Assembly: GCA_943788055.1 (NCBI GenBank)
Contig: CALSOU010000002.1
Span: 62,001-126,000 of the forward strand
Source: an uncultured Saprospiraceae bacterium
GTDB lineage: Bacteria; Bacteroidota; Bacteroidia; Chitinophagales; Saprospiraceae
DNA length: 64,000 nucleotides
Direction: 5' to 3'
Below, one piece after another: positions 19,737 to 62,752 of this stretch. The translations under genes were made by a program, and so were the position numbers. Every line of letters begins with the position of its first letter. Position 1 is the stretch's first letter. The notes beneath the pieces were generated by a model. That model was not told where the DNA came from, searched no databases, and was given only the letters and a program-made list of their open reading frames with translations.

Positions 19737-20210
19737 CTACAAAACTTTATCAGCACATGATGAAGATGCGAAAGCAGACGGTTTGGCTTTGAAAACAAAT
19801 CCCATTCCCAGGATATAACCCATGGCATCTTTAAGCGCTGAATTAGATTTGAACTCTGGATCGGTATTTATATCGGCGTGTACTTCTAGAGCAATATCAT
19901 GTTTTTGAATGACCGATGACAAACGGTAAGCTATATCTATGGATTTGGCAACTTCATTCATCATACGTTGCTTTAGCGCTACTTGACTTTGTTCCTTGGA
20001 TGATTTAATGAACATAAATCCACCTTTACCTTTTCTCAAGAAAACCACTACGGTTGCATATTGAACTACGTCTCCTTTTACTAAAGAGTCTGTACCAACG
20101 CAAATTTTCAATTGAAATCCCGCTTTTTTCTCTCGAATAATAACTTTTTCAACCTCTTCGACTATAGGAAGTTCAAGCTGCTGACCATTTAATTTTCGCC
20201 ATTGATCCAT
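19737..20210 (-). CDS. YkuK-like predicted RNase H fold protein (DUF458)
   Basis: 157 residues matching the DUF458/YkuK family, described as predicted RNase H-like nucleases. Visible hallmarks are the first acidic residue in CVGTDSLVKG (near 38), EVHADINTDPEFKSN (near 112), YILGMGF, and the C-terminal KPSAFASSSCADKVL. No biochemical role is established. The ATG at 20210 is the only reasonable start. It is likely the first gene of a short transcript that also contains the broken DUF1569 gene. Confidence 0.8.
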   Translation of the reverse strand: MDQWRKLNGQQLELPIVEEVEKVIIREKKAGFQLKICVGTDSLVKGDVVQYATVVVFLRKGKGGFMFIKSSKEQSQVALKQRMMNEVAKSIDIAYRLSSVIQKHDIALEVHADINTDPEFKSNSALKDAMGYILGMGFVFKAKPSAFASSSCADKVL

Positions 20211-20350
20211 ATTGTAACGATATTATATTCAAATTTTATTAATAGTAACATAGATTTAGTCATTTTTTGCTTGATGAGACCGCACTATTCCTAAACATTA
20301 ATGTGCTACTACTTTCTATTATAAAGTAGTTTTGAAACGTAGTAGCAAAA

Positions 20351-20379
20351 CAAAAACCCCTAGAAAGTGCTTCCAGAGG
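20351..20379 (-). terminator. Terminator after the susCD operon
   Basis: Minus-strand stem CCTCTGGAAG/CTTTCTAGGGG with a 3-base loop and some G-T pairs, followed by TTTTTGTTTTG. It begins about 30 bases after the SusD stop. Confidence 0.65.
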
Positions 20380-20406
20380 CCTTTGATTTTTCATGTTTAT
20401 ATCTAT

Positions 20407-22620
20407 TTAATATCCAGGATTTTGATCGAGATTAGGATTAGCTGCTCGATCGGCATTTGGTATTGGGAAGATGTTTCGGTAAGACTCAGTTTTTGCTCCT
20501 TCTTGAACTCCACCTTTCCATTGCCACAGATAGTCTCCATCTGTAAATTGGCCAAACCTTACTAAATCAGTTCTTCGATGACACTCCCAATATAACTCTC
20601 TCGCTCTTTCATCTAGTATTAAGTCTAGGGTTAATTCGCCAGCAGATACATTGGCAGAAGTACTTGTATATGCTCTAGTTCTAACTTCATTGAAATATTC
20701 AACAGCATCAGCCTCAGTTCCACCTGCGGCACCTCTTAAGATCGCTTCAGCAGCCATTAAGTAGGCATCAGCTAATCTAAACATCGGAAAATCTGTATCT
20801 GGATGTTCTAAATTAGACCCCGGCTCACCTGTAGAAGTAACGTTTTTGAACTTTCTCACTGCATATCCTTCAGTGAAGGTTGCAACATCTTCAATATCTA
20901 GGTTCTGACCATCGCTCCAGAATATTGCTCTTCTATCAAACGATATCAAATTGATATCATATGTGTAGTCGGGCTTGTCTAGATATAAAAATATCTCATA
21001 TGCTTCTTGATCAACTATTACTATATCGTCACCGTCGTACTCCAAAATAGCATCTAGCTCTCCATCTCCAAAACTCACGTCCCATGATCCATTTGCACGG
21101 AATTTCAGTCCTCCTGGTACCATATCCAATTTGACACGCATAGCATTTAGCTCTTCATCATAGGTCATTGGTGTGTCGTTGTCCCATCCACCAGGAGTAG
21201 CATCTCCAATCACTGAAAAATCTCTTTTCTCAACAACATAGCTATTATCTTTGAGGTCTACTTGTACAAAGTATAAACCCGCATCACTTAGAACTATATT
21301 TGATCCATTCGTTTCAAGCATTCCATCAAGATCACTATCTCCTAATACTTGCGGACTTGAAGATGGAAATTTAGCTATAAAAAACTCTCCATTTGCTTCA
21401 GGAAAATAAACATGTCCTTCATAGACCATATCACCAGTTGAAGCTAGAGAATTGTCTGTATCGGTAGCGTCAAAACCCTGCGTGGAATTTGGTATGTATA
21501 TTTTAGGGTAACTCGCAGTATTTCCTTCTGTTGATTCGATATAACTTCCACCACCTGGGGGGAATTTTTCTACTAATTGGCGGGTTGTACGAACTCCTGC
21601 CCAACCGTTGACTACACCGCTTTCCTCTGCTGGCATTGAACCCCCGAGTCCTGCTCTTATTATAAATGTCATACCACCCCAAGTACGAGTAAAATTTCCA
21701 TCCTGTGTGATTGGAAAAATCATTTCAGGTGATTTATGATTATCAGCTAAGAATAGATTCTGATAGAGTGGATCAAGTTCGAAGCCAGCGTTAATGACTT
21801 TTTGGGCGTAAGCCAACGCATCTGTATAACGATCTTGACTAATGTACACTTCAGCGTTCAAATATAATTTAGCCAGTAGCATTTGCACTGTTGCGGCGTC
21901 TGCACGACCATACTCATTTTGTCTACTCGGAGAAATAGCAGCTTCGATTTCGGTCAACTCAGACTCAATAAAACTAAAGAGCTCCTGTGGAGTAGCTTGT
22001 TCAGGTTGAAATTTTCCAATCGGATCGTCTTCAGTTACAAAAGGTACATTTCTAAACAAATCAAGAGCATGCCAATAAGAAAGTGCTCTCAGAAATCTAG
22101 CTTCCGCTCTGTAAGAATCGATTTCAGCTCTAAAATCAGCAGGTACACCTCGTTCATCTAGGACATCACTTGCAGTTTGACGAAGGTACTCATTACACAA
22201 CGTCACTTGATAAAAAATTCGGCTGTAGTGACCATACTGAAAACCGTCGCTTGCTGTCCAATCTTGATCATGGAAGTCAGTAATTGTCTGATCATTCCAA
22301 CCAACGATTGCCTCATCTGTAGTGAATTCTTGATGGTAATAATAACCTCTCAAGTACTGTCCGAAGCCCTCATCAAGTCCTGAGATATCCCCTTGACCAG
22401 CGGGTCCTTGTTGGCCAGATACTGCCAATCCAGCATATAGTTTTGCTAAAACTCCTTTATAAGACTCTAAGTCATCATATACAATACCACTTGTAATAAG
22501 CTCATCATCTAAAGGAGTTGTATTAAGATCATTAAAACATGAAAATTGAGTCAAAACAAAAACTGTCCCAAGAATCAAGAATAATGACTTTCTATAAGTT
22601 TGATTTATTCTATTTTTCAT
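20407..22620 (-). CDS. susD: SusD/RagB glycan-binding lipoprotein with embedded SusE/F-like modules
   Basis: Outer-membrane lipoprotein (lipobox LTQFSC) that caps a SusC transporter and binds glycan. SusD features include the N-terminal helices, YRAEARFLRALSYWHALDLFRNVPFV near residue 175, and the C-terminal FRLADAYLMAAEAILRGAAGG and FPIPNADRAANPNLDQNPGY. The protein has 737 residues, about 200 more than usual, because residues 395-558 are an insertion of two beta-sandwich modules. The second (FSVIGDATPGGWDNDTPM) closely matches the repeats of the divergent gene at 25,743. The modules resemble the starch-binding domains of SusE/SusF. It lies 38 bases after susC in one operon and is intact although susC is broken. 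Confidence 0.92.
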   Translation of the reverse strand: MKNRINQTYRKSLFLILGTVFVLTQFSCFNDLNTTPLDDELITSGIVYDDLESYKGVLAKLYAGLAVSGQQGPAGQGDISGLDEGFGQYLRGYYYHQEFTTDEAIVGWNDQTITDFHDQDWTASDGFQYGHYSRIFYQVTLCNEYLRQTASDVLDERGVPADFRAEIDSYRAEARFLRALSYWHALDLFRNVPFVTEDDPIGKFQPEQATPQELFSFIESELTEIEAAISPSRQNEYGRADAATVQMLLAKLYLNAEVYISQDRYTDALAYAQKVINAGFELDPLYQNLFLADNHKSPEMIFPITQDGNFTRTWGGMTFIIRAGLGGSMPAEESGVVNGWAGVRTTRQLVEKFPPGGGSYIESTEGNTASYPKIYIPNSTQGFDATDTDNSLASTGDMVYEGHVYFPEANGEFFIAKFPSSSPQVLGDSDLDGMLETNGSNIVLSDAGLYFVQVDLKDNSYVVEKRDFSVIGDATPGGWDNDTPMTYDEELNAMRVKLDMVPGGLKFRANGSWDVSFGDGELDAILEYDGDDIVIVDQEAYEIFLYLDKPDYTYDINLISFDRRAIFWSDGQNLDIEDVATFTEGYAVRKFKNVTSTGEPGSNLEHPDTDFPMFRLADAYLMAAEAILRGAAGGTEADAVEYFNEVRTRAYTSTSANVSAGELTLDLILDERARELYWECHRRTDLVRFGQFTDGDYLWQWKGGVQEGAKTESYRNIFPIPNADRAANPNLDQNPGY

Positions 22621-22658
22621 AAAAAATTTTTCTCTTATTAATAATATGATTCAATGGA

Positions 22659-25629
22659 CTAAAACGTTGCATTGACTCCCAAAAGATAATTCGTTGTTCT
22701 CGGGTAAATGTTGTTATCGATTCCTCCTTGGATCTCAGGATCAAGTCCAGTATAACTAGTCAAGACGAGCGGGTTCTGCACTGATACATAAACTCTGATG
22801 TTTCTATTAGTTAGCTTATTGAAATCATATCCCGCAGTTATATGATCCAATCTAAAGAATGAGGCACTTCTCAAATAATGATCGCTAAATGTTAGACTTG
22901 CTTGTTGCTCAACATTATTATCTATGGCAGCTTGATGTACATTCCAAAGCGCTCCCAAATTACTAATTCTGCTCTTAAATCCCATATCAGTCTCAACATT
23001 TGCATAAACAAACTGTCCGATATTAGCTCTTCCTGCAAATGAAAAATCGAATGATCCAATATTCATATTATTAGTGATTCCAAATGTATAATCAGGAAAT
23101 GGATTTTCGAATCTGTATTTATCATCATCGTTTACAATTCCATCCTCATTACGATCAACAAACTGCCCTTCCAAAATATTACCATCATCATCATACTCTT
23201 GTTCAAAAACGAAAAATGAATTTGGTGAGAAACCAACGGTATGAATTTGAATATTAGAACCAACACCGCCTGCAATTCCACCCGTGAGAATACCTATATA
23301 ATCAGGATCATCTGACGCAGTTAATTTGGTTACTTTATTCTCGTTGTAAGCCATATTTGCGTTAATATCCCAGGTAAAATTCTCTTTTACAATTGGTGTG
23401 TAGTTCAGAGCAATCTCTATTCCTCTATTTTCCATATTTCCAATATTCGTCGTTATTTCATTCGTCAAATTGGATCCTGCAGGAACAGTTATTGTATTTA
23501 ATAGATCCTTGGTCAATCGTTGATAAATATCAATCGAACCAGACAATTTGTTTCGAATAATTGAGAAATCGGCAGCAATATTATAGGTTGAAGTCTCTTC
23601 CCATTTGATGTTTTCATCATAACCATTTGGGCGTATGGTCTGAACAAACTGGTCTCCAAACTGGTACTGAGCATTTTCAAAACCATATTGATATAAACCT
23701 TGATAAGCATAAAGCCTTTGACCGTTTCCGATATTTTGTTGACCAGTTACACCCCATCCAGCTCTCACTTTCAAATTGCTAAAATATTTGTTTTTGTTAT
23801 CAATCACTTTCACCGCAAGTGAAGCTGCCGGAAACAAGCCCCATCTTGATTCAGGTGAGAACCTAGAAGTTCCATCCCTTCTCAATGTAAATGTTGTAAA
23901 AACACGATCATTGATATTATAATTAACCCGTCCAAAAAGTGATACTAGGTAGAGTTCTTCTTGATTGGAGTCCTCAAGCGTTTCAGTAGGTGTCCCGTTT
24001 ACATCGCTATTTCGGAAATTACTATCCCAAAAGAATCTTTGCCAAGAGTAACCTCCCATAATATCAAAATCATGTATTCCATATGATTCTATATAATTTA
24101 AGTATGTTTCTAGCAAGGTATTGTAACTTGTACTTTCATAGGTATTATCTGCACCGCCACCAGTATTCGCATTAAAAGCGATCGCTGAATTTTGGGGTAT
24201 AAAAAAAGATCCTCCTCCGTTAATATAATCATACGCCAAGTTGACATTAGCTCGTAAAGCTGGCAAGAATGGTAAGCGATAGTCCGCATTTAAAGAAGTT
24301 AAGTATCTATTTACGTTCGATCGATCATCCCTATCTGTCAAAAGCGCAACAGGATTTCTTGGAGCCAATTGATTTGGTACTCCAGCAGAACCAGATGTCC
24401 ATGTCGTAAAGCCGTTATATACTTCTTCTCCTGACATAACTGGTTTGGTAGGATCAAACGAAAGCGCATTCCCGATTGCTCCTCTATCAGCAAAATTATT
24501 ACGACTATGCATGCTTTTAAAATTCATTTTCAATTGCAATGTATTGTCAATAAATCCTGGAGTCAAACTAAGAGCAGTAGTAAATCGGCTAAATCTGTCC
24601 GTTTTCAAACACACCATTGTGATCTGTGTATCCAACTGATGCACGATAAGGCAAAGATCCTACAGCTCCCGATGCACTAAGACTATGATCTGTCCATTAT
24701 CGCATTTCGGTATATTTCATCTTGCCAATCGGTATTCGCATCTCCTAATAACTCTAAAGGTGCGTCTCCCTCTTCAAATCTTTCGTTCATCAATGAGCGA
24801 AACTCATCAGCAGATAGGACATCTACTTGTTTTGTATTACTAGCCGTTGGCAACATTACCAGAATAAGTTAGAGAAATCTTTTTTGAATCCAACGATCCT
24901 GATTTAGTAGTAATTAAGATAACACCACCCGACGCTCTACTTCCATAGATAGCAGTTGCAGAAGCGTCCTTCAATACAGTCATCGATTCTATATCATTTG
25001 GATTTACAAACGTTCAATGGATTTCTCGATCCACTTCCTCCTCCACCGTCAATAGGAACACCATCAACAAACAATCAAAGGGGCGTTAGATGCTCCTAAA
25101 GAAGAAAGTCCTCTTATTAAGATTGACGCTCCACCACCAGGACTTGGATCCGTGGTGATAGTAAACCCCTGCTACTTTACCTGCAAGTAATTGCTGAGGT
25201 CCAGCAATTGCACCTTGATTAAATTGTTTAGTTGTTACCGACTGTACTGCTCCTGTTGCGTCTTCTCTCTTAACCGTTCCGTAACCAATCACAACGACGT
25301 CTTCCAATATCTGACCAGATGATAACGCAGCATTAATTTCAGTTTGTCCATCAATTACAATCTCCTGACTAGAATAACCTGTATAGCTAAAAACAAGTGT
25401 TGTTGCCCAATTCACCGACTTTCAATGAAAAATTTCCATCAAAATCAGTGATAGTAGCAGTTGAAGTGTTATCTTTTACAACAATTGTTGCTCCTATTAG
25501 CGCCTCGCCTGTCGTGACATCAGTAACGGAACCTGTTATCACTTTTTGAGCGCTGAGTTGAAATGTACAAAGCGAGCCCAAGAGAATCACACAAATCTGC
25601 CACAGCAAATTATATTTAGTAATTAACAT
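22659..25629 (-). pseudogene. susC: SusC/RagA TonB-dependent receptor broken by seven +1 insertions
   Basis: Outer-membrane importer for a glycan: signal peptide, carboxypeptidase-like domain (VTDVTTGEALIGATIVVKD), TonB box and plug (EDVVVIGYGTVKRED), and barrel ending in NYLLGVNATF. The ORF is shifted at 25406-25408, 25163-25165, 25069-25071, 25008-25010, 24848-24849, 24694-24695 and 24607-24609. At each place deleting one base of a short run restores the expected protein. The length 2971 minus 7 equals 988 codons exactly. The last 1.95 kb is open. Apart from the insertions the protein sequence looks fully conserved, so this is either a very recent loss or a local sequence-quality problem. 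Confidence 0.88.
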
Positions 25630-25742
25630 TGAAAATAATTTAAAATTTCTGTTATGTAAAGGATGTAAAAATAAAAAATTATATCTACTTTGCGTCGTAT
25701 TGACAATAACTTTAATTAATTCTTTTTTAAAAACTAAATAAT

Positions 25743-27506
25743 ATGAATCTACGTCTACTTTTATTTGCTATTCTTAGCACTTTTATGCTAAGTCTGCAAG
25801 CACAGTCAATCGGTATTATTGGTAGCTCAACTCCAGGTGGTTGGGATGCTGATACGGATATGACTCAGGATGCAGGAAACACTAGTTTGTGGTCTATAGA
25901 TCTTACACTAATTGATGGTGCAGCAAAATTCAGAGAAAATGATGATTGGGCAGTAAACTGGGGTGGAGCTGACTTCCCGATTGGAACCGGAACTCAAGAC
26001 GGTGCTGATATTCCTGTATTTGCAGGAGATTACACAGTAACGCTTGACACTTCTTCTGGCGAGTACAATTTCCAACTTCACTCTGATATCGGAATTATCG
26101 GAGACGCAACTCCTAATGGATGGGACTTTGATACTGATATGTACCAAATGGCAGATGATACTAATATGTACTTTATTACGCTTGATCTAGTACCGGGATC
26201 AGCTAAATTCCGTCAATTTGATGATTGGGCAACAAACTGGGGTTCTGCTGACTTCCCAATTGGAACCGGAACTCAAGACGGTGCTGATATCTCAGTTGAC
26301 AAAGCTGGAACTTACTACATTACATTCAACAAATCCACAGGTGAGTATGAATTTGGTGAAGAAATCACATATGGTACTATAGGTATAATCGGTGATGCAA
26401 CTCCAGGTGGTTGGGATACTGATACGGATATGACACAAAATGCAAATGATCCAGATGTATGGAATGTTACATTAGAGCTAGTTGCTGGTTTCGCGAAATT
26501 TAGAGCAGAAGACGATTGGATAGTTAATTGGGGAGGAGAAGACTTTCCTTCAGGAACCGCGACTTTAGGAGGTCCAGACATTCCCGTAACTGCAGGTACA
26601 TATCAGATTAGTCTAAATGTTGAAACTGGTGAATATGAATTCTTGGAAGTGATTGATTACGCGACAGTAGGTATTATTGGCGATGCTACTCCCGGAGGTT
26701 GGGATGCTGATACAGACATGGTAAAAGATCTTGATGACGGTGCAATGTGGAGCTTAAGAGTGATTCTTGTGGATGGTCTTTTGAAGTTTAGAGCAGATGA
26801 TGATTGGGCTGTAAATTGGGGTTCGGGCGATTTTCCAATGGGAGTTGCAGTTCAAGATGGGGCTGACATTCCAATCCCAGCAGGTGAATATATTATTACT
26901 TTCAACACTGTAACTGGAGAGTATAATTTTGAAGAAATTGTTGTTTTCAGTACAGTAGGTATTATCGGAACAGGTTCTCCGACAATGGGATGGGATGAAG
27001 ATACAGATATGACAAAGGACCTAGAAAATGAATTTCTATTTACAATGTCGAGCACGGAGCTATTCGATGGCGAGGTGAAATTTAGAGCTGAAGATGATTG
27101 GGCTGTAAACTGGGGCGCGGAAGAATTTCCAGTTGGAACTGGTACACAAGACGGACCAAACATTCCAATGACTGCCGGAACCTATGATATTTCTCTTATT
27201 ACTGATACTGGTGATTATGCATTCTCCGATCCAAATAGTAATGAAGAAATATTACTGCCTACAGCTATAGCATTGTATCCGAACCCTGCAAGCTCCTATT
27301 TAAGTCTAGAAGTAAACGATAGCAGATTACAAGGTCAAGTTGAAGTAACAATTATTGATATGACAGGTGCAGTTGTGCTTTCGCAAAATGTTGATACTAG
27401 TGCAAAAACACTAATCAATATTGAAACTTTACTTACAGGTCAATACACAGTAAGACTAAGAAATGATAAAAATCTCATCGGAAAGAAATTGACGATCATC
27501 AAATAG
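25743..27506 (+). CDS. Secreted protein of five SusE/F-like modules with type IX sorting domain
   Basis: 587 residues. A signal peptide (MNLRLLLFAILSTFMLSLQAQ) is followed by five tandem modules of about 97 residues (roughly 22-118, 119-215, 216-315, 316-412, 413-497), each starting IGIIG..TPGGWD.DTDM and containing FR..DDWAVNWG..DFP.GT. The C-terminal 85 residues (ALYPNPASSYLSLEV to KKLTIIK) form a type A sorting domain of the type IX secretion system. The modules are homologous to the insertion in the neighbouring SusD, so both probably bind the same glycan. It is divergent from susC and closed by a strong terminator. The ligand is not known. Confidence 0.88.
   Translation: MNLRLLLFAILSTFMLSLQAQSIGIIGSSTPGGWDADTDMTQDAGNTSLWSIDLTLIDGAAKFRENDDWAVNWGGADFPIGTGTQDGADIPVFAGDYTVTLDTSSGEYNFQLHSDIGIIGDATPNGWDFDTDMYQMADDTNMYFITLDLVPGSAKFRQFDDWATNWGSADFPIGTGTQDGADISVDKAGTYYITFNKSTGEYEFGEEITYGTIGIIGDATPGGWDTDTDMTQNANDPDVWNVTLELVAGFAKFRAEDDWIVNWGGEDFPSGTATLGGPDIPVTAGTYQISLNVETGEYEFLEVIDYATVGIIGDATPGGWDADTDMVKDLDDGAMWSLRVILVDGLLKFRADDDWAVNWGSGDFPMGVAVQDGADIPIPAGEYIITFNTVTGEYNFEEIVVFSTVGIIGTGSPTMGWDEDTDMTKDLENEFLFTMSSTELFDGEVKFRAEDDWAVNWGAEEFPVGTGTQDGPNIPMTAGTYDISLITDTGDYAFSDPNSNEEILLPTAIALYPNPASSYLSLEVNDSRLQGQVEVTIIDMTGAVVLSQNVDTSAKTLINIETLLTGQYTVRLRNDKNLIGKKLTIIK
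25809..27228 (+). repeat. Five tandem protein-coding repeats of about 290 bases
   Basis: The five modules of the secreted protein are also visible as DNA repeats. Stretches such as GGTTGGGATGCTGATAC and GGAACCGGAACTCAAGACGG recur nearly unchanged in modules 1, 2 and 4-5, which suggests recent duplication or gene conversion among them. Confidence 0.8.
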
Positions 27507-27530
27507 TTTTTTGATAATTTATCAATAGTT

Positions 27531-27565
27531 AAAAAGCCTGCCCGAGTAAATCGGGTAGGCTTTTT
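27531..27565 (+). terminator. Strong terminator after the SusE/F-like secreted protein
   Basis: AAAAAGCCTGCCCGA and TCGGGTAGGCTTTTT form a 15-bp stem with one mismatch pair around GTAAA; with A and T runs on both sides it can work in both directions. Confidence 0.88.
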
Positions 27566-27639
27566 AAATTCTTAGTTGAAGCTTTGAAATATTAATCTAG
27601 TATTTACATTAAAAAATCGCAGTTTACAAAGACATTTGA

Positions 27640-27801
27640 AACGCCATAGCAGGAAAACACCCTAGAATATATTCCTTCGCTTGGGGAGATCTGACTGAAG
27701 AGGATGTTAAACAATATGTACCAAGCAGCTCCAATTTCTCTATTTTATACAAAGGGGAACCAATGGATGTATTTCATCTATTTCTTGAAAACCACTTTTG
27801 A
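27640..27801 (+). pseudogene. Possible remnant of an unidentified gene
   Basis: An open stretch reads KHPRIYSFAWGDLTEEDVKQ and on to a plausible C-terminus FLENHF before TGA. It has no start codon and is preceded in frame by TGA. The composition looks protein-like, but I do not recognise a family. Its end overlaps the antisense DUF4870-like pseudogene. It could be chance. Confidence 0.25.
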
Positions 27802-28326
27802 AAGGACTCACCAACAAAGGGAAGCACCTCTTATTGCAGGCAAAAGGCTCATCATCAATAATATGAATAAGGCTAGATAAGATACAATTCCCCCGGAAAC
27901 AGCCAAATACCATACAACAAGTAGAGCTACAAAACCAACAACCGAAATGGAAGAAACAATTGTCAGAAAAACAAAATATCCGAATCCCAAAGTCAGACCT
28001 ATGAGAAGTCCAATCATTGATAATCCAGCAACTTGTTTGATATAAAATCCTGCTAGTTCCGATTGATCTCCAACATTCATTACAATAGCGACCATCAAGC
28101 CAAGGATGGGAATATACGCTATCACAGTAATTAGGACTCCCTGATCCTTCAGCAGTTTAAAACACTTTCGAGCATTTGTTTTAATTCTACTCCAAATTCC
28201 ATCTTTTTACATTGTACTTACAGCGAGACTTTGCGATGTTACTGCTGGAATGATCACCACAGCTTGAGCAGGTACTATTGAAGTACATCCGATCATAAAT
28301 AATAACAAGAAAGCTATCTGTTTCAT
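27774..28326 (-). pseudogene. Broken paralogue of the DUF4870-like membrane protein
   Basis: From ATG 28326 the frame gives MKQIAFLLLFMIG and a signal peptide region matching the intact gene 0.4 kb upstream (28,693-29,211). It then meets TAA at codon 41 (STM-stop-KDGIWSRIK against STLNKGGLWSKIK), continues in frame through the membrane helices (PILGLMVAIVMN, SYLALFILLMMSLLPAIRG), and is shifted by one extra T at 27816-27818, after which VGESFQKWFSRN matches the paralogue's VGKMFQKWF. Removing the extra base leaves 184 codons exactly. So a tandem duplicate has acquired one stop and one frameshift. Confidence 0.82.
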
Positions 28327-28601
28327 TTAAAAGAATTTATACTTCTAATACCTCAACAGCATAGAATTGGAGGGTGAAATTATCGACAAACTATTTTCTC
28401 GCATTTATTAAGGTAACTAATGTCCCATTTGCTTAATAAATTTGACAATTAATATTTCGCTCTTTATTGCAACTGCAATTTCTGCTAGTCTTTCTACGAA
28501 TACCCTAGTCGTACAATCCTCGATAAACCTTTTGCTACACGCAAAAGAGAAATAGGTCCATCAGAGTCGAATGAATATGCTCAAGAAGATATTCATTTAC
28601 A

Positions 28602-28633
28602 TAAAAAATCTGCACCAAAAGCTTGATGCAGAT
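28602..28633 (-). terminator. Terminator of the intact DUF4870-like gene
   Basis: Minus strand: ATCTGCATC and GGTGCAGAT form a stem around AAGCTTTT, followed by TTTTT. It lies about 60 bases after the stop at 28,693. Confidence 0.65.
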
Positions 28634-28692
28634 CAGTATTATATTTCTTGAAGTACAAGATCTAAATTAAGAACTATAACTGTTATTTCTTT

Positions 28693-29211
28693 TTACCCTA
28701 TACTCGCAAACCACTTTTGAAACATCTTTCCAACAACTGGAAGTTCTTTTTGCTCACCCTTGATCGCAGATAAAAGACTCATAATTAGCAATACTACCAG
28801 TCCCAGATTAACAAAGAAACCCGCAATCGCAACTATGACATTGACAACAGGAATCAATGACAGTATTCCGACAACTATCGATATAGCGAGACCTAATATC
28901 GATAATCCTAGTACTTGTCTGATATAGAATGACGCCAATTCTGACTTCTTATCCGCATTCATCACAATTGCAATGACCAAACCGATGATCGTAATGTGAG
29001 CAATAACTGCAATCTGTACGGCTTTGTCCTCGATCATTTCAAAAAACTGGTGTACTTTCGTTTTTATTTTACTCCACAAGCCCCCCTTATTCAAAGTACT
29101 TACGGTAAGGTTTTGTGCTGTTACAGCAGGCACAATCACCACTGGTTTAGCTAATGCTATTGAAGAAAAACCTATCACAAATAATAATAGAAAAACTAAC
29201 TGTTTCATCAT
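28693..29211 (-). CDS. DUF4870-like small membrane protein
   Basis: 172 residues with a signal peptide (1-21), a linker (WSKIKTKVHQFFEMIEDKAV), then three or four membrane helices (about 65-165). The motif HITIIGLVIAIVMN, then FYIRQVLGLSILGLAI and VVLLIMSLLSAIKGEQ, resembles the DUF4870/Tic20-like family of small membrane proteins, common and uncharacterised in Bacteroidota. The added signal peptide is not usual for that family. A degraded tandem copy lies just downstream. No function is proposed. Confidence 0.65.
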   Translation of the reverse strand: MMKQLVFLLLFVIGFSSIALAKPVVIVPAVTAQNLTVSTLNKGGLWSKIKTKVHQFFEMIEDKAVQIAVIAHITIIGLVIAIVMNADKKSELASFYIRQVLGLSILGLAISIVVGILSLIPVVNVIVAIAGFFVNLGLVVLLIMSLLSAIKGEQKELPVVGKMFQKWFASIG

Positions 29212-29310
29212 GAACTTTTTTGATTATTAATACTGTAAAAGTAAAAACTTAGAGCATAAAAAACATAGAAAATTTATACTCTCACTCATTTAATTAGTAA
29301 ACTGTCACTT

Positions 29311-29892
29311 TCACTTAGTAACATCAACAACTAGCATTCCAGCTTTTGTTGCTGCTTCAATGCCTGACGGTCCATCTTCAAATACCATGCAATCTTCTGG
29401 TCGAAGACTCATCGCTTCTGCACAAACTTCAAAAATCTCTGGATTTGGCTTTCCGGGAATATCATCAGATCCGGTTACAACTTTAACCCACCAATCTGTA
29501 GCACCAATATCTTCGAGACTACGAATTGCGTTGCCTCGAGAAGACCCTGTAGCAATACACATAGGCAATTTACCCCTTTGATCAAGAGCTATTGTATAAA
29601 TCTTTTCGATAGGCTTGATCTTCCCCTGCTTTAATTTGAATTTGTCGTAAAACTCTGATTTCTTTTTTCGCACAGCCTTTGGGTCTAAACCCCAACCAAA
29701 ATCATTATTGAATCGATTTACTAGTGCTATAGTAGGTGACCCCAAATGTTGATTGATTAATTCTTCAGTAATTGGCACGTTAAAAAACTCACCAACAGCA
29801 ACCCACGACTTAAGATGCAGTGGCATTGTATCTACAAGGGTACCATCTAAGTCAAAAATCAAACCTTTAATGTAATCAGGAACTACTATCAT
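29311..29892 (-). CDS. HAD-IA family sugar-phosphate phosphatase (YqaB/beta-PGM-like)
   Basis: 193-residue haloacid dehalogenase family enzyme. Motif I is FDLDGTLVDTMP near residue 13, followed by a small helical cap. Motif II is CIATGSSRGNA, the motif III lysine is in GKPNPEIFEVCAEAM, and motif IV is CMVFEDGPSGIEAA. The VDTMPLHLKSW segment after motif I is like beta-phosphoglucomutases and the fructose-1-phosphatase/6-phosphogluconate phosphatase YqaB. Cytosolic. The ATG at 29892 is preferred to a TTG 15 bases upstream. It stands alone. Substrate not determined. Confidence 0.85.
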   Translation of the reverse strand: MIVVPDYIKGLIFDLDGTLVDTMPLHLKSWVAVGEFFNVPITEELINQHLGSPTIALVNRFNNDFGWGLDPKAVRKKKSEFYDKFKLKQGKIKPIEKIYTIALDQRGKLPMCIATGSSRGNAIRSLEDIGATDWWVKVVTGSDDIPGKPNPEIFEVCAEAMSLRPEDCMVFEDGPSGIEAATKAGMLVVDVTK

Positions 29893-30067
29893 TTCTTTTT
29901 GAGGCAAAGAAATAGAAATAAATAAGACTTTTCTATAATATTTCCTTTTGCATGTAATACGTGATACAGCGAATCGTTAAAATAAAGATTCTTCCAGCTG
30001 AAAACGATGGCAAGTTTTCCAGAAACTTATTGCAATTAGGAATCGTTATATAAACGAAATATATACC

Positions 30068-51608: not shown

Positions 51609-52935
51609 TTAATTCTTGTCTTGTGATTCAAACAGTTCGCTCAAATCGGTTTTCGCCTCTAAATCAGTTTCAAGTAATGCTCTATTAATTATTGGCAACT
51701 GAAATGCTCTAATAGATATTTCTTTACCGTCTGCTAAAGCATCTTTAATTGTCAATTCTGTTTCTTCTTCCTGACCTTGTTTAATTGTGTTAGGGTAGAA
51801 TAATATGATTTCATCCACTTCAAACCTTACAGCATATGCGAGCATTTGATATAGGTCGTTCTGAGAAATACCTTTCTTTGGGTCTTTCTCATCTGAATAG
51901 ACAATCTTGTATTTAGTATCAGCAATCAGAGATTTATGATCTGTTTTTAGCCATAAATCGGGTTTTAAATTAAAGGCTTTTCCTTCGTCAAGGTATGTGT
52001 CGCTTCTTTGCGCTTTGGCAGTTACTTTCTCTAGTTCTTTGTCAATGAAACCAAAAATAAAGTCTTCAAAAACATATTCCATTGGAAGTAGAAAAGCGAA
52101 GAGTTTTAAGTCATTTTTATAGTCAAACGAAATACAGTTGGTAAGGAATAATTGGCAATAATCGCGGACTGTTTCAAACTCACCAAACATTGGATTGAAT
52201 GAGATTCTAGAACATTGTTCAGCAGTTGCCCTTTCGTCTGACACTTCATCCAATATGAAGAGTATTTCTCTTAAGTTCTTCTTGCTATCTTGACTTGAGG
52301 TAACATTAAATAGAAGAGTAGTAACATACTTTATTATGCGATTGAATTCATTGTCAAAAACGAAAGCATCATAAGTACAATTGAGTTTATGCCATTTGCC
52401 TTTGCTTAAGTTTTCATTTATGTATTCGTTAGTGTTTAGTCTCCCTTTTATAAATGATAATTCACGATTGACTTCTTCATACTGTTGGTATATAGAAGAG
52501 TTTAAAAGTTCTCGAGTGTATTTTGAGAAGAGATAAATTAAAACTTCAAAAAAGTCACTTTTTGCACTACCTAATGAAGCTTGATAGTTCGGGAATTTAA
52601 TTTTTCGACAATAGCTTAACCACCATAGAATATGGTTTTGAATTTGATTTACTTCATTGGTTTGATATTCCTTTTCAGAGTCGAAAAATATCTTTGGTAA
52701 TAGGTTTATTTTATTTCCTTCATAATGAATTACACCAACGTATTTATTTGATTTTAACTTCATTTGATTTATGAATGAATTGTAAGAATCGTTGAGATTC
52801 TATTTTGTCATTTCCATTTTCTGAATAAAAAGAATTCTTTTCACGACTATTCCAGATTTCATCAAGAAACCCTTCCAAGCCTTCAAATGAGTCTTGAATA
52901 TCTACCTTGTTTTGATATTCAAAAAGGTTAATCAT
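51609..52935 (-). pseudogene. mcrC: McrC subunit of a McrBC restriction system, +1 frameshift
   Basis: McrC is the nuclease partner of McrB that cuts modified DNA. The N-terminus INLFEYQNKVDIQD ... ESQRFLQFIHKSNEVK is joined, after removing one A from the run at 52,752-52,755, to SNKYVGVIHYEGNKINLLPKIFF. The C-terminal PD-(D/E)XK region includes LKPDLWLKTDHKSLIADTKYKI near residue 325. The corrected length is 442 codons exactly. The ATG at 52,935 overlaps the mcrB stop by 8 bases. As it stands the N-terminal 60 residues are separated from the nuclease. Confidence 0.85.
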
Positions 52936-55404
52936 TCTTACCTGATATTTTTAGAGGCCATGAATTTTCTTCTATAATAAGGCCTGCAGAATTCAGAATT
53001 CCTTTAACTTCTTTCTCGTCATTCATATAATACTCAAGAAGCAATGGAATAACTTTCTTATTCATTCTTTGTACAAGGTCTTTATTATCTCCCATAAAAT
53101 AGGCATGTCCAATTTGGAAGTCGTGACCTTTTGACTTAATTATTTGTTTGTTGATTTTTTCAAGAATTTCAACATCATAGATTTCTTGGTCTTCGATTTC
53201 ATATTTTGGATACATTGATTCAAATTCAAATCTTCTTCTTAAGAGCGATATCTAATAGTGCAATTGATTTGTCAGCGGTGTTCATTGTTCCAATGATGAA
53301 TAAGTTAGAAGGAACAATAAATGGATCTCCAGAAGGTAATCGAGCTTCCAATGGAATTGTACCATGAGAACGCTTGTCAGGTTCAATAAGTGTTATAAGT
53401 TCTCCAAAAACTCTTGAAATATTTGCTCTGTTAATTTCATCAATGATTATTACATAATCCTGGCGTTTAATTTGTTCTTTTTTACCCGAAGAGTCTTTTC
53501 CGAGTTTTAGTAATTCAGCTAAAAGAGGGGTGTAGTATGACGCTAAACCTTGTATTTCTAAAACAGATTCGGCCAAATACATTTTCTTAAGTGTTCCAAT
53601 GCTCAATGTATGTGCTGTTCCTCCACTTGCTTTTCTAAAATCGATTGATTTATTAGAAATAGCTGTAATGAAGTATGAAACCTTCTTCATTTTCACTTCA
53701 ATTTCCTCAATTTCACCTTCTACTAGAGGATTTATGAATTCGTTAAATACTTCTTCAAATGGTCTTTTTGATAGCTGTGGTTTTTCGGATTCTGTTAGAT
53801 TTTTTAATGCTTTGTCCGCAATTTCTTTGAAAACACCATCCTTTCTTTCAAAAGTGAGTTGGTTATCATTTTCTGTATCGGGTCTTAATCCTTGTATGAA
53901 ATCTTCATAGCTGTAGTTCTGATGAAAAGTGATAAATTCTATTTTGTCATGAAGGTTAGCTTTAAACACTTCCAGAGCCTCATCATATGAGTCGATTACA
54001 CGATTCTCAATTATTTGTGCAGCTCTTAATATTGTGTTGTATGTTTTTCCAGATTTTTTGGTGCGTGATAATTCTTTTTTAATAGCTGACAAGACACTTG
54101 ACCATTCTTTATCGTTTGGGTCAAATAGATCATAGTAATTGTAGTATGGTTGTGGCGGTTTTCCGTCAAATGGTTCGCTCGAATCTTTTAATTTTTCCTC
54201 TGAGATAATACCAAAATTACCTCTCGCATCAGAAGTGAATATATTTAAACAGTACCGTTGACCAATTATGAGATTTAAGCGATAACCTCTAACGCTGTAG
54301 ACTATTCTTGGGTCACTAGGCTTGATGTCTAAGTCATTGTTTAATTTCCGCAATAATTTGATATACTGGTTGAATATTTTTGGATCAAATTTGTTTTTTG
54401 TTGTTTGAAATTTACTTTCAGCTGTTGCCATCTCTAAAAGGGTATCATACTCATCTTGAGTAGCACTAAAGTTGGTGCCCTGATTACCTACTTTCAAATC
54501 GTTTAATTCATCTACACCTTTGATATCCTCGCTAAGAATTGGATTGTTTACAAGGTTATTTGTGATTTTAATATCTGCTTTTAGCGAACTTTTGTCTTCA
54601 CCTTTCCAAAGATGATCATCAGGTGAAGTTGTTTTTTTGATGGGGTTTTGAGGTAACCTCTGCAAGAGCATAACAACCTGCTTGATCGCCAGTAATCCAC
54701 AGTATTACTTTATCACCAATTTTAATTTTCTCTTTGTGTGCACTAACAGTCCAATCCGTTAGAATTTCTTGACTTAGCGCTGTTTCAAAGTCGAAAACCC
54801 TAGGATTACCTTGAAATACCCAATAATTAACCTTTTTTCTCTCATCATTCCATTTCCAAGCTTCATAAGATAATTCATAGAACGGGATGCTAATCTTTTC
54901 TCTTATTTCTGATAAAATGTCTACGTATTCAGTATATGTGTTGAATTTTGGATCAATACCTAAAACCTCCTTTATATATGGTTTTGTTGGCCCATTTATA
55001 GGTAGATATTTTTCAGGGTTTATATAAAATAGAGCTTCAGTTAATTTTGTCTTACCAGTGCTTCTTATTAATAGAGCATCTGAGAAATCTTGGTCAGTAA
55101 TTTCACCTTTTAGTTCTTTATTGAAAAGATGCCATAATCGCCTAACCTCATTATTATTTCTTTCATACTTGTATGGAAACAACCATACTTTTTGAGCTTG
55201 CGCAGATGGAATACCACTTTCTCCAGATGGTTTTTCAATATTGAGAGTTGTCGCAATTTCTTGTAGGTATTTTAGCCTTCTTTTCGTTCCATATTTATAT
55301 ATGTAACAGTAGAAAGTAAAAGGATCTATTTCATCAAGTTCAATATCATGTTCACCTGAACCAGCTTTATCATTGAAAGGGCCAATTCCAACAGATTTGA
55401 GCAA
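52928..55404 (-). pseudogene. mcrB: EVE-domain McrB GTPase, with two +1 frameshifts and a lost P-loop
   Basis: Layout: helical N-terminus, EVE modified-base reader (YWVFQGNPRVFDFETAL to GCYALAEVTSKP), MrcB-type domain, then AAA+ GTPase (ITFHQNYSYEDFIQGLRP, Walker B VIIIDEINRANISRVFGELI, GTMNTADKSIALLD). One extra base at 54,632-54,638 separates the EVE domain, and one at 53,239-53,240 removes the C-terminus; corrected length 825 codons exactly. The P-loop reads RTKKSGKTYNT instead of GPPGTGKT, as if an in-frame deletion joined ELSRTKKSG to GKTYNT. The start is unclear: only TTG 55,404, with a TAA further upstream. Certainly non-functional as read. Confidence 0.85.
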
Positions 55405-60721: not shown

Positions 60722-62752
60722 GTGAGTAAAACAATAACTAAAGTAGCTGCTGACAACATAAGAATCCTGTCCGCCGCTATGGTAGAAAAAGCAAAATCTG
60801 GACATCCAGGTGGAGCAATGGGAGGTGCTGACTTCATTCAGATTCTCTACAGTGAGTTTTTGAATTTTGATCCTGATGATCATTCTTGGCCATTCCGGGA
60901 TCGATTTTTTCTTGATCCAGGTCATATGTCTGCTATGTTGTACTCACAATTGACCCTTATCGGAGCCATGCAAATGGAAGACATCCAAGCTTTCCGTCAG
61001 TGGAAATCTGCAACTCCAGGACACCCAGAGTTCGACATCCTCAGAGGAATTGAGAATACTTCAGGACCTCTAGGACTAGGTCATGCATTTGGTGCCGGAG
61101 CGGCAATTGCGGAAGAGTTCCTTACAACCAGATTTGGACAACTAATCAGCCACTACACTTACATGTATATTTCAGACGGTGGAATACAAGAGGAAATTTC
61201 TCAAGGTGTGGGAAGAATTGCTGGCTTTTTGGGATTGGGTAAAATGATTATGTTTTATGATGCGAATGACATACAGTTGTCAACTACCGTTGGTGAAGTG
61301 ACCGGTGAGGATACAGCTGCGAAATACGAAGCATGGAACTGGCATGTTGTAACCATAGATGGAAACGATGAAGATGCGATCAGAAAGGCAATTGTTGAAT
61401 CCCAGAATGAAAAAGAAAGACCGAGTCTTATTATTGGTAAAACGATTATGGGAAAAGGTGCTGTGAAAGAAGATGGTTCTTCTTTTGAAGGAGAGGTTTC
61501 GACTCATGGTCAACCTTTGGGTAAAAGTAATGCATCATTTGCAAAAACTATCGAGAACCTGGGCGGAGACCCAGAAAATGCTTTCAGTATTTTCCCTGAT
61601 GTTGCTGATTACTATAGAAAAGTACTTGATCAAAAACGAGAATCGATAAGAGAGCAACGGAAGGCATTTGAGGAATGGGAATTATCGAATCCTGAGATGA
61701 GTTCTACACTTCATAAGTTTTTAAAGGGACACCTTCCTAATCTTAAATGGGACACCATCGAATTGAAGGCTAACGATGCAACTCGTAATGCTAGTTCAAA
61801 GGTCCTCTCATATTTTGGTGATAAGATCGAAAATATGATTGTTGCTTCTGCGGATTTATCAAATAGTGATAAAACGGAAGGCTTTTTGAAAAAGACAAAA
61901 GCACTAGAAAAGGGTGATTTTTCAGGTCGTTTTCTACAAGCTGGCGTATCAGAATTAACGATGGGAGCTCTTGCGACTGGAATGGCACTCCATGGTGGGG
62001 TTATCCCTGTGTGTGCGACATTTTTCGCCTTTAGTGATTACATGAAACCAGTTTTACGTGTCGCCGCATTAATGGAACAGCCAGTTAAATTCATGTGGAC
62101 ACACGATGCTTTCAGAGTGGGTGAAGATGGACCAACGCACCAGCCTATCGAGCAAGAAGCTCAGTTACGTTTACTAGAAAAACTTAATAATCATTCAGGC
62201 AAATCCTCCATGATTGCTTTAAGACCAGCTGATTCGTCAGAGACAGTTGCTGCATGGAAATCGATGATGGAGACAAATGATCGTCCTACAGGTCTAATTC
62301 TTTCAAGACAAGGTATCGCAGATTTACCTTCTTACACTTCCGAAAGCCGTCTAGAGGTTTCAATGAAATTGAATAAGGGTGGATATATATTGAAAGATGT
62401 AGAAGATCCTGAAGTAATTTTATTGGCTAACGGTTCAGAGGTGAGTACCCTACACAGTGCGATAGAAGAATTATCGAAAAAGTATCGAACTCGAATTGTG
62501 AGTGTTCCTTCTGAAGGTTTATTCCGCGAACAATCCGCTGATTATCAAGCAAAAGTATTACCAGCAGGTGTACCAATTTTTGGAATGACAGCTGGACTTC
62601 CAGTAACGCTTGAAAGCTTGGTTAGAGGCAACGGTACTGTTTATGGTATGACACATTTCGGTTATTCAGCACCATATACCGTGCTTGACGAGAAGTTTGG
62701 ATATACAGCAGAAAATGTTATTGCTCAGGTAGACGCTTTGATGAGTAAGTAG
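60722..62752 (+). CDS. tkt: Transketolase
   Basis: 676-residue thiamine-diphosphate enzyme of the pentose phosphate pathway. Visible are KSGHPGGAMGGADF near residue 25, FLDPGHMSAMLYSQL, GPLGLGHAFGAGAAIAEE, the ThDP region YISDGGIQEEISQG near 145 (SDG where most have GDG), and in the pyrimidine domain FAFSDYMKPVLR and HDAFRVGEDGPTHQPIEQ. Start codon GTG, 1 base into a clear promoter leader. Complete and unbroken. The SDG variant recurs in some Bacteroidota homologues as far as I recall. Confidence 0.94.
   Translation: MSKTITKVAADNIRILSAAMVEKAKSGHPGGAMGGADFIQILYSEFLNFDPDDHSWPFRDRFFLDPGHMSAMLYSQLTLIGAMQMEDIQAFRQWKSATPGHPEFDILRGIENTSGPLGLGHAFGAGAAIAEEFLTTRFGQLISHYTYMYISDGGIQEEISQGVGRIAGFLGLGKMIMFYDANDIQLSTTVGEVTGEDTAAKYEAWNWHVVTIDGNDEDAIRKAIVESQNEKERPSLIIGKTIMGKGAVKEDGSSFEGEVSTHGQPLGKSNASFAKTIENLGGDPENAFSIFPDVADYYRKVLDQKRESIREQRKAFEEWELSNPEMSSTLHKFLKGHLPNLKWDTIELKANDATRNASSKVLSYFGDKIENMIVASADLSNSDKTEGFLKKTKALEKGDFSGRFLQAGVSELTMGALATGMALHGGVIPVCATFFAFSDYMKPVLRVAALMEQPVKFMWTHDAFRVGEDGPTHQPIEQEAQLRLLEKLNNHSGKSSMIALRPADSSETVAAWKSMMETNDRPTGLILSRQGIADLPSYTSESRLEVSMKLNKGGYILKDVEDPEVILLANGSEVSTLHSAIEELSKKYRTRIVSVPSEGLFREQSADYQAKVLPAGVPIFGMTAGLPVTLESLVRGNGTVYGMTHFGYSAPYTVLDEKFGYTAENVIAQVDALMSK

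Follow-up and report, generated by a model that had tools for sequence, protein, structure and literature searches.

Is the susC gene at this locus broken in the bacterium that carries it, or only in the assembly that represents it? The gene begins with an ATG at 25629 on the minus strand, its stop codon ends at 22659, and as assembled its reading frame is interrupted by seven single extra bases. We examined it in the window, which is the whole 64,000-nucleotide stretch of DNA that was analysed (positions 62,001–126,000 of contig 2), and in further stretches of the source genome, an assembly of 2,995,115 bases in 13 contigs that is rated 96.85% complete and 2.01% contaminated. The features of the window on which the argument draws are as follows.

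22659–25629, minus strand: susC-type TonB-dependent receptor gene (TIGR04056, TonB_dep_Rec_b-barrel), 988 codons discounting seven extra bases
24599–25415, minus strand: tract in which the frame shifts seven times, each time by one extra base, from 14 of 14 frame-aware alignments and a coding-statistics HMM
22659–24598, minus strand: the remaining two thirds of susC towards its 3′ end (beta-barrel), undamaged, as none of the 14 alignments has a shift here and 22659–24644 is a single open reading frame
20407–22620, minus strand: intact susD-type gene (SusD_RagB, SusD-like_3), no shift called inside
25743–27506, plus strand: intact, divergent SusE/SusF-like gene with a type IX sorting tail (SusF_SusE, Por_Secre_tail)
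52745–54653, minus strand: mcrB/mcrC stretch with further extra-base shifts near 54623–54653, 53230–53248 and 52745–52751, from alignments and domains

The damaged gene belongs to the SusC/RagA family, as its score against TIGR04056 lies above the cut-off of 368.25 bits (496.1 bits counting the neighbouring pieces; 346.4 for the 3′ piece alone) and the adjoining gene, one open reading frame of 737 amino acids with SusD domains, matches SusD_RagB. Its closest named SusC matches in the searched collection are metagenome-assembled genomes of Saprospiraceae, with the genome L058 at the top. The other four SusC genes above the cut-off in the genome are unbroken.

Beyond the start of susC, the SusE/F-like protein (25743–27506) appears by eye to be made up of about five repeat units of 91 to 97 residues, and it has a type IX sorting tail. 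Farther on, adjacent copies of a small gene occupy 27770–28340 and 28660–29220 and share 68% of their DNA letters over 312 bases. An in-frame stop interrupts the first copy, which, in contrast to susC, has the look of a duplicate undergoing ordinary decay.

When the raw susC DNA was aligned to proteins with one-base shifts permitted in both directions, the results for 14 intact orthologues (selected among 98 loci, the window's own counted, with aligned identities of 50 to 65%) were unanimous. Every alignment contains exactly seven extra-base events, no missing-base event and no in-path stop, and none places an event outside 24599–25415. A second, homology-free method, a fifth-order phase-specific Markov model with frame-shift states that was trained on the genome's long open reading frames, gives positions that agree with those of the alignments to about 20 bases.

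Shift 1, minus strand, extra base: alignment 25400–25415; Markov model 25407
Shift 2, minus strand, extra base: alignment 25141–25162; Markov model 25149
Shift 3, minus strand, extra base: alignment 25068; Markov model 25071
Shift 4, minus strand, extra base: alignment 25007–25010; Markov model 25009
Shift 5, minus strand, extra base: alignment 24841–24859; Markov model 24849
Shift 6, minus strand, extra base: alignment 24690–24696; Markov model 24695
Shift 7, minus strand, extra base: alignment 24599–24608; Markov model 24591

The strand-wise model returns these seven insertion calls and no other in 23501–26500 at penalties of 3, 4, 5, 6 and 8. Run over 20001–30000 with penalties of 7, 8 and 9, the both-strand model reproduces these seven calls and makes no others within susC or susD; penalties of 5 and 6 bring two additional calls at the susC/susD junction. 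Judged by a Poisson background of all sampled shift calls, seven same-strand shifts in 817 bases do not arise by chance (probability roughly 8 × 10⁻¹² per interval, or 2 × 10⁻⁵ once the number of intervals is allowed for).

A preliminary description of this DNA had reported seven single-base +1 shifts, all in the 5′ third of a susC gene followed by a whole susD, and both methods bear this out. Its length for the repaired gene is also correct, given that the span of 2971 bases less seven leaves 2964, or 988 codons including the stop. The same description held that each shift duplicates a base of a short run. The sequence contexts match its list of short runs, but a position in such a run is not provable for every event, because homology locates each shift only to a few codons and runs of TTTTT and GGGG lie within about 10 bases of shifts 1 and 2, respectively.

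The hallmarks of a pseudogene, namely substitutions, stops and deletions beside insertions, were sought in the tract, and neither a missing base nor a stop is found there in 14 of 14 alignments. For amino-acid changes, a lineage test with L058 (66% identical) as the sister and L030 as the outgroup gives a ratio of own-specific to L058-specific changes of 20:30 in the tract versus 54:69 downstream (Fisher P 0.74), and with three outgroups the ratios are 6:11 and 18:28. The share of differences at third codon positions is 0.58 in the tract versus 0.55 downstream. Moreover, 71 of the 72 residues invariant in the 14 orthologues are retained, with the proviso that an alignment selecting the best-fitting frame path leans slightly to conservation. 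Lineage-specific changes and invariant residues thus reveal no relaxed selection on the protein encoded by the tract. The substitution test, along with the absence of stops, leads us to reject real decay, in keeping with the earlier claim that the pattern is unlike random decay, which would mix deletions, substitutions and stops. Because the tract carries no excess change, its shifts must be of extremely recent origin if they are real at all. A search for a sister strain found none; the nearest relative is 66% identical at the protein level, and records of the genome itself were possibly omitted from that search.

Shifts are not confined to susC. The preliminary description stated that there are none elsewhere in the 3 kb of the gene, which is true; the statement does not extend to the window, as mcrB and mcrC carry extra-base shifts at 52.7–54.7 kb. 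The region 51609–55404 holds an EVE-domain mcrB and mcrC pair with about three such shifts. The one at 53242–53248 in mcrB is present in alignments to four of four mcrB references, and that at 54623 in the one of the four whose alignment extends there. In mcrC, a shift at 52745–52748 is present in both alignments above the score filter, which are only 25–26% identical. The EVE domain is cut at position 72 of 145 in one open reading frame, and AAA_5 lies in the next. This mcrBC damage may reflect a further patch of errors, or the pair may be a genuine pseudogene of a defence system.

Other contigs contain comparable lesions. The nearest parallel is the start of contig 11 (L188:1-2334), occupied by one conserved gene that encodes CBM6 domains and a type IX sorting tail and is truncated by the contig end. 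Its five nearest relatives have open frames of 697 to 919 codons, and alignment to four of these references reveals eight extra-base and two missing-base shifts, one of the latter at the very contig end. The fifth, shorter reference yields six extra-base shifts and one missing-base shift, and there are no stops against any of the five, at 49 to 55% identity. The only valS gene found (L171:9201-11589; contig 6, 109,201–111,589) is split in two by one frame shift, near position 110,091 of the contig, and falls below the family cut-off, whereas 13 of 14 control genomes have a valS above it. valS is an essential gene. Other matches to the valS model lie elsewhere in the genome, in open frames that range from 512 to 1117 codons, and we infer that they are related synthetases; in principle, a second valS could be missing from the incomplete genome.

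Domain matches reveal further split genes. An ABC ATPase is divided over a frame change (ABC_tran 1–66 and 80–137), as is a Cys/Met lyase (Cys_Met_Meta_PP 6–263 and 265–380). An aspartate/ornithine carbamoyltransferase gene (L142:6233-7106) is split 0.26 kb before contig 13 ends (OTCace 1–40 and 61–144). In the first 1.3 kb of contig 10, an rlmL-like gene is split between its THUMP and UPF0020 domains. A CBM_6 domain that seemed split at position 21 was dropped, as its left piece has no match.

A census of shift calls covered stretches of the genome that total 1,561,317 non-N bases. A version with a high shift penalty detected only one of the seven susC shifts and was replaced. The resulting census is a lower bound: among 60 simulated tracts with seven duplications, nine received at least five insertion calls and 24 at least three, and the same 60 places unmodified received none. 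There are 14 clusters with at least three calls within 1 kb, and the two with at least five are susC and the start of contig 11. Ten of the other 12 were inspected (all except two on contig 10, at about 112 kb and 49 kb); they combine junctions between genes with isolated shifts inside genes, and include those in mcrBC, valS, the ABC ATPase and the rlmL-like gene.

Calls are also unevenly distributed along contigs. Within 3 kb of 23 contig ends there are 32 calls in 69,000 bases where 14.1 are expected (P about 3 × 10⁻⁵), although some of these calls fall right at the contig edge, where context for the model is scarcest. Away from ends there are 307 in 1,497,317 bases, so that ends are 2.3-fold denser; because calls include ordinary gene junctions, only this contrast between ends and interior is informative. 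Five hand-chosen cases among 11 filtered missing-base candidates were checked for domains: three are gene junctions, one in a MopE-repeat gene is apparently in-gene, and the fifth, with EngA beside a dTDP-sugar epimerase, is probably a junction. Missing-base shifts at the start of contig 3 and the end of contig 4 look in-gene. For four insertion candidates (C2:213866, C1:17752, C10:3423 and C2:264969) the check indicated neither in-gene shift nor junction. Events for testing were chosen by hand, and no overall ratio of insertions to deletions was derived.

These observations allow several explanations to be weighed. That susC is a young pseudogene, inactivated very recently by seven mutational single-base insertions, has in its favour that the shifts are present in the sole available sequence and that mcrBC in the same window is also broken. 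However, such a history demands seven insertions with no deletion, stop or excess amino-acid change, in bacteria, where substitutions far exceed indels and indel mutation is biased to deletions, and core genes of the assembly carry the same kind of lesion; we judge it very unlikely. A single real mutational event that put seven +1 shifts into 0.8 kb, for example an insertion-prone repair tract that switched the transporter off in one lineage, is a shade less likely again. Local insertion-biased hypermutation or an error-prone repair patch, in which one event, such as synthesis of about 0.8 kb by an insertion-prone polymerase during repair, introduced all seven at once, would account for shifts that are clustered, share one sign and come with no further decay. 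We know of no such repair patch, and it predicts neither the contig-end cluster nor the split valS; it is extremely improbable.

Conservation of the amino-acid sequence over all seven shifts would also be expected if ribosomal frameshifting or transcript editing yielded a full-length SusC from the shifted gene. Yet the genome's other four SusC genes and the 14 orthologues are open in one frame, so the need for a shift is not conserved in relatives, and inspection of the site contexts by eye found no slippery motif common to the seven. This is the least credible reading and has almost no claim on belief. Collapse or mispolishing through a near-identical repeat within the genome does not explain the shifts, as a search of the genome with 24400–28000 found no second match beyond 39 bases lying outside susC.

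By far the most probable explanation is that the seven extra bases arose as sequencing errors and were left uncorrected in a short part of the assembly with thin support, and that the real susC is intact. This reading is favoured because the tract lacks decay and because the assembly contains other shifts, including the contig-end cluster and the only valS. Lesions of like kind recur at the contig 11 start, and in the carbamoyltransferase and rlmL-like genes near contig ends, and calls are denser at ends generally, which is where read support is usually thinnest. A conserved gene at a contig end with many one-base shifts and no other damage is the expected product of unpolished long reads, and the susC patch looks alike. 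The preliminary description was right that the pattern is not decay-like; assembly error, which it named only as a refutation, is now favoured, given the shifts near contig ends and those within genes that are conserved or essential.

Most likely, the patch would be consensus sequence from a single-molecule read, or from very few of them, that polishing missed. It sits inside a 268-kb contig, away from its ends, which speaks against this reading; the simplest account would be that usable reads were locally scarce or that raw sequence was used to close a gap. We infer both the low read support at this spot and the kind of sequencing. The living bacterium would then have an ordinary, intact susC paired with the adjoining intact susD.

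Published error profiles agree with this explanation in part. One study reports that frame-shift correction has a greater effect in low-coverage contigs (PMC8103633), and another that indels exceed mismatches among PacBio subread errors (PMC7006217). The PBSIM3 ratio for PacBio CLR, given as 22:45:33 and taken as substitution:insertion:deletion, implies a chance of 0.02 that seven of seven indels are insertions under its 45:33 ratio (PMC9713900). The insertion lean therefore fits single-molecule reads in kind, with a 7:0 split that is a little extreme. In error counts given by a further study, deletions outnumber insertions, and long-read errors are reported to fall mainly in homopolymers, unlike the susC shifts, which are mostly at short runs (PMC12007338). 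The pure +1 pattern of susC is not fully accounted for by an artefact, as some other damaged genes include missing-base shifts. Given the extreme 7:0 split, the excess of deletions in those counts (PMC12007338) and the missing-base lesions elsewhere, we leave the sequencing technology unnamed.

The locus offers a caution rather than a discovery: a highly rated assembly can hold short patches where conserved genes seem broken, and pseudogene or loss-of-function calls in this one, whether for mcrBC, valS or susC, are untrustworthy without reads.

As assembled, susC shares a broken reading frame with bacterial pseudogenes, but differs from them in having no in-path stop, deletion or excess of substitutions. 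Its domain, its adjoining susD and its intact Saprospiraceae relatives of up to 66% identity are those of SusC/RagA receptors (TIGR04056), from which only its frame-shifted 5′ third sets it apart. Compared with the indel errors of long-read (metagenome) assemblies, seven insertions and zero deletions in 0.8 kb of a contig interior are atypical. Single-base shifts without other change, which strike several genes, core genes included, and are called more densely at contig ends, are features that this assembly has in common with them.
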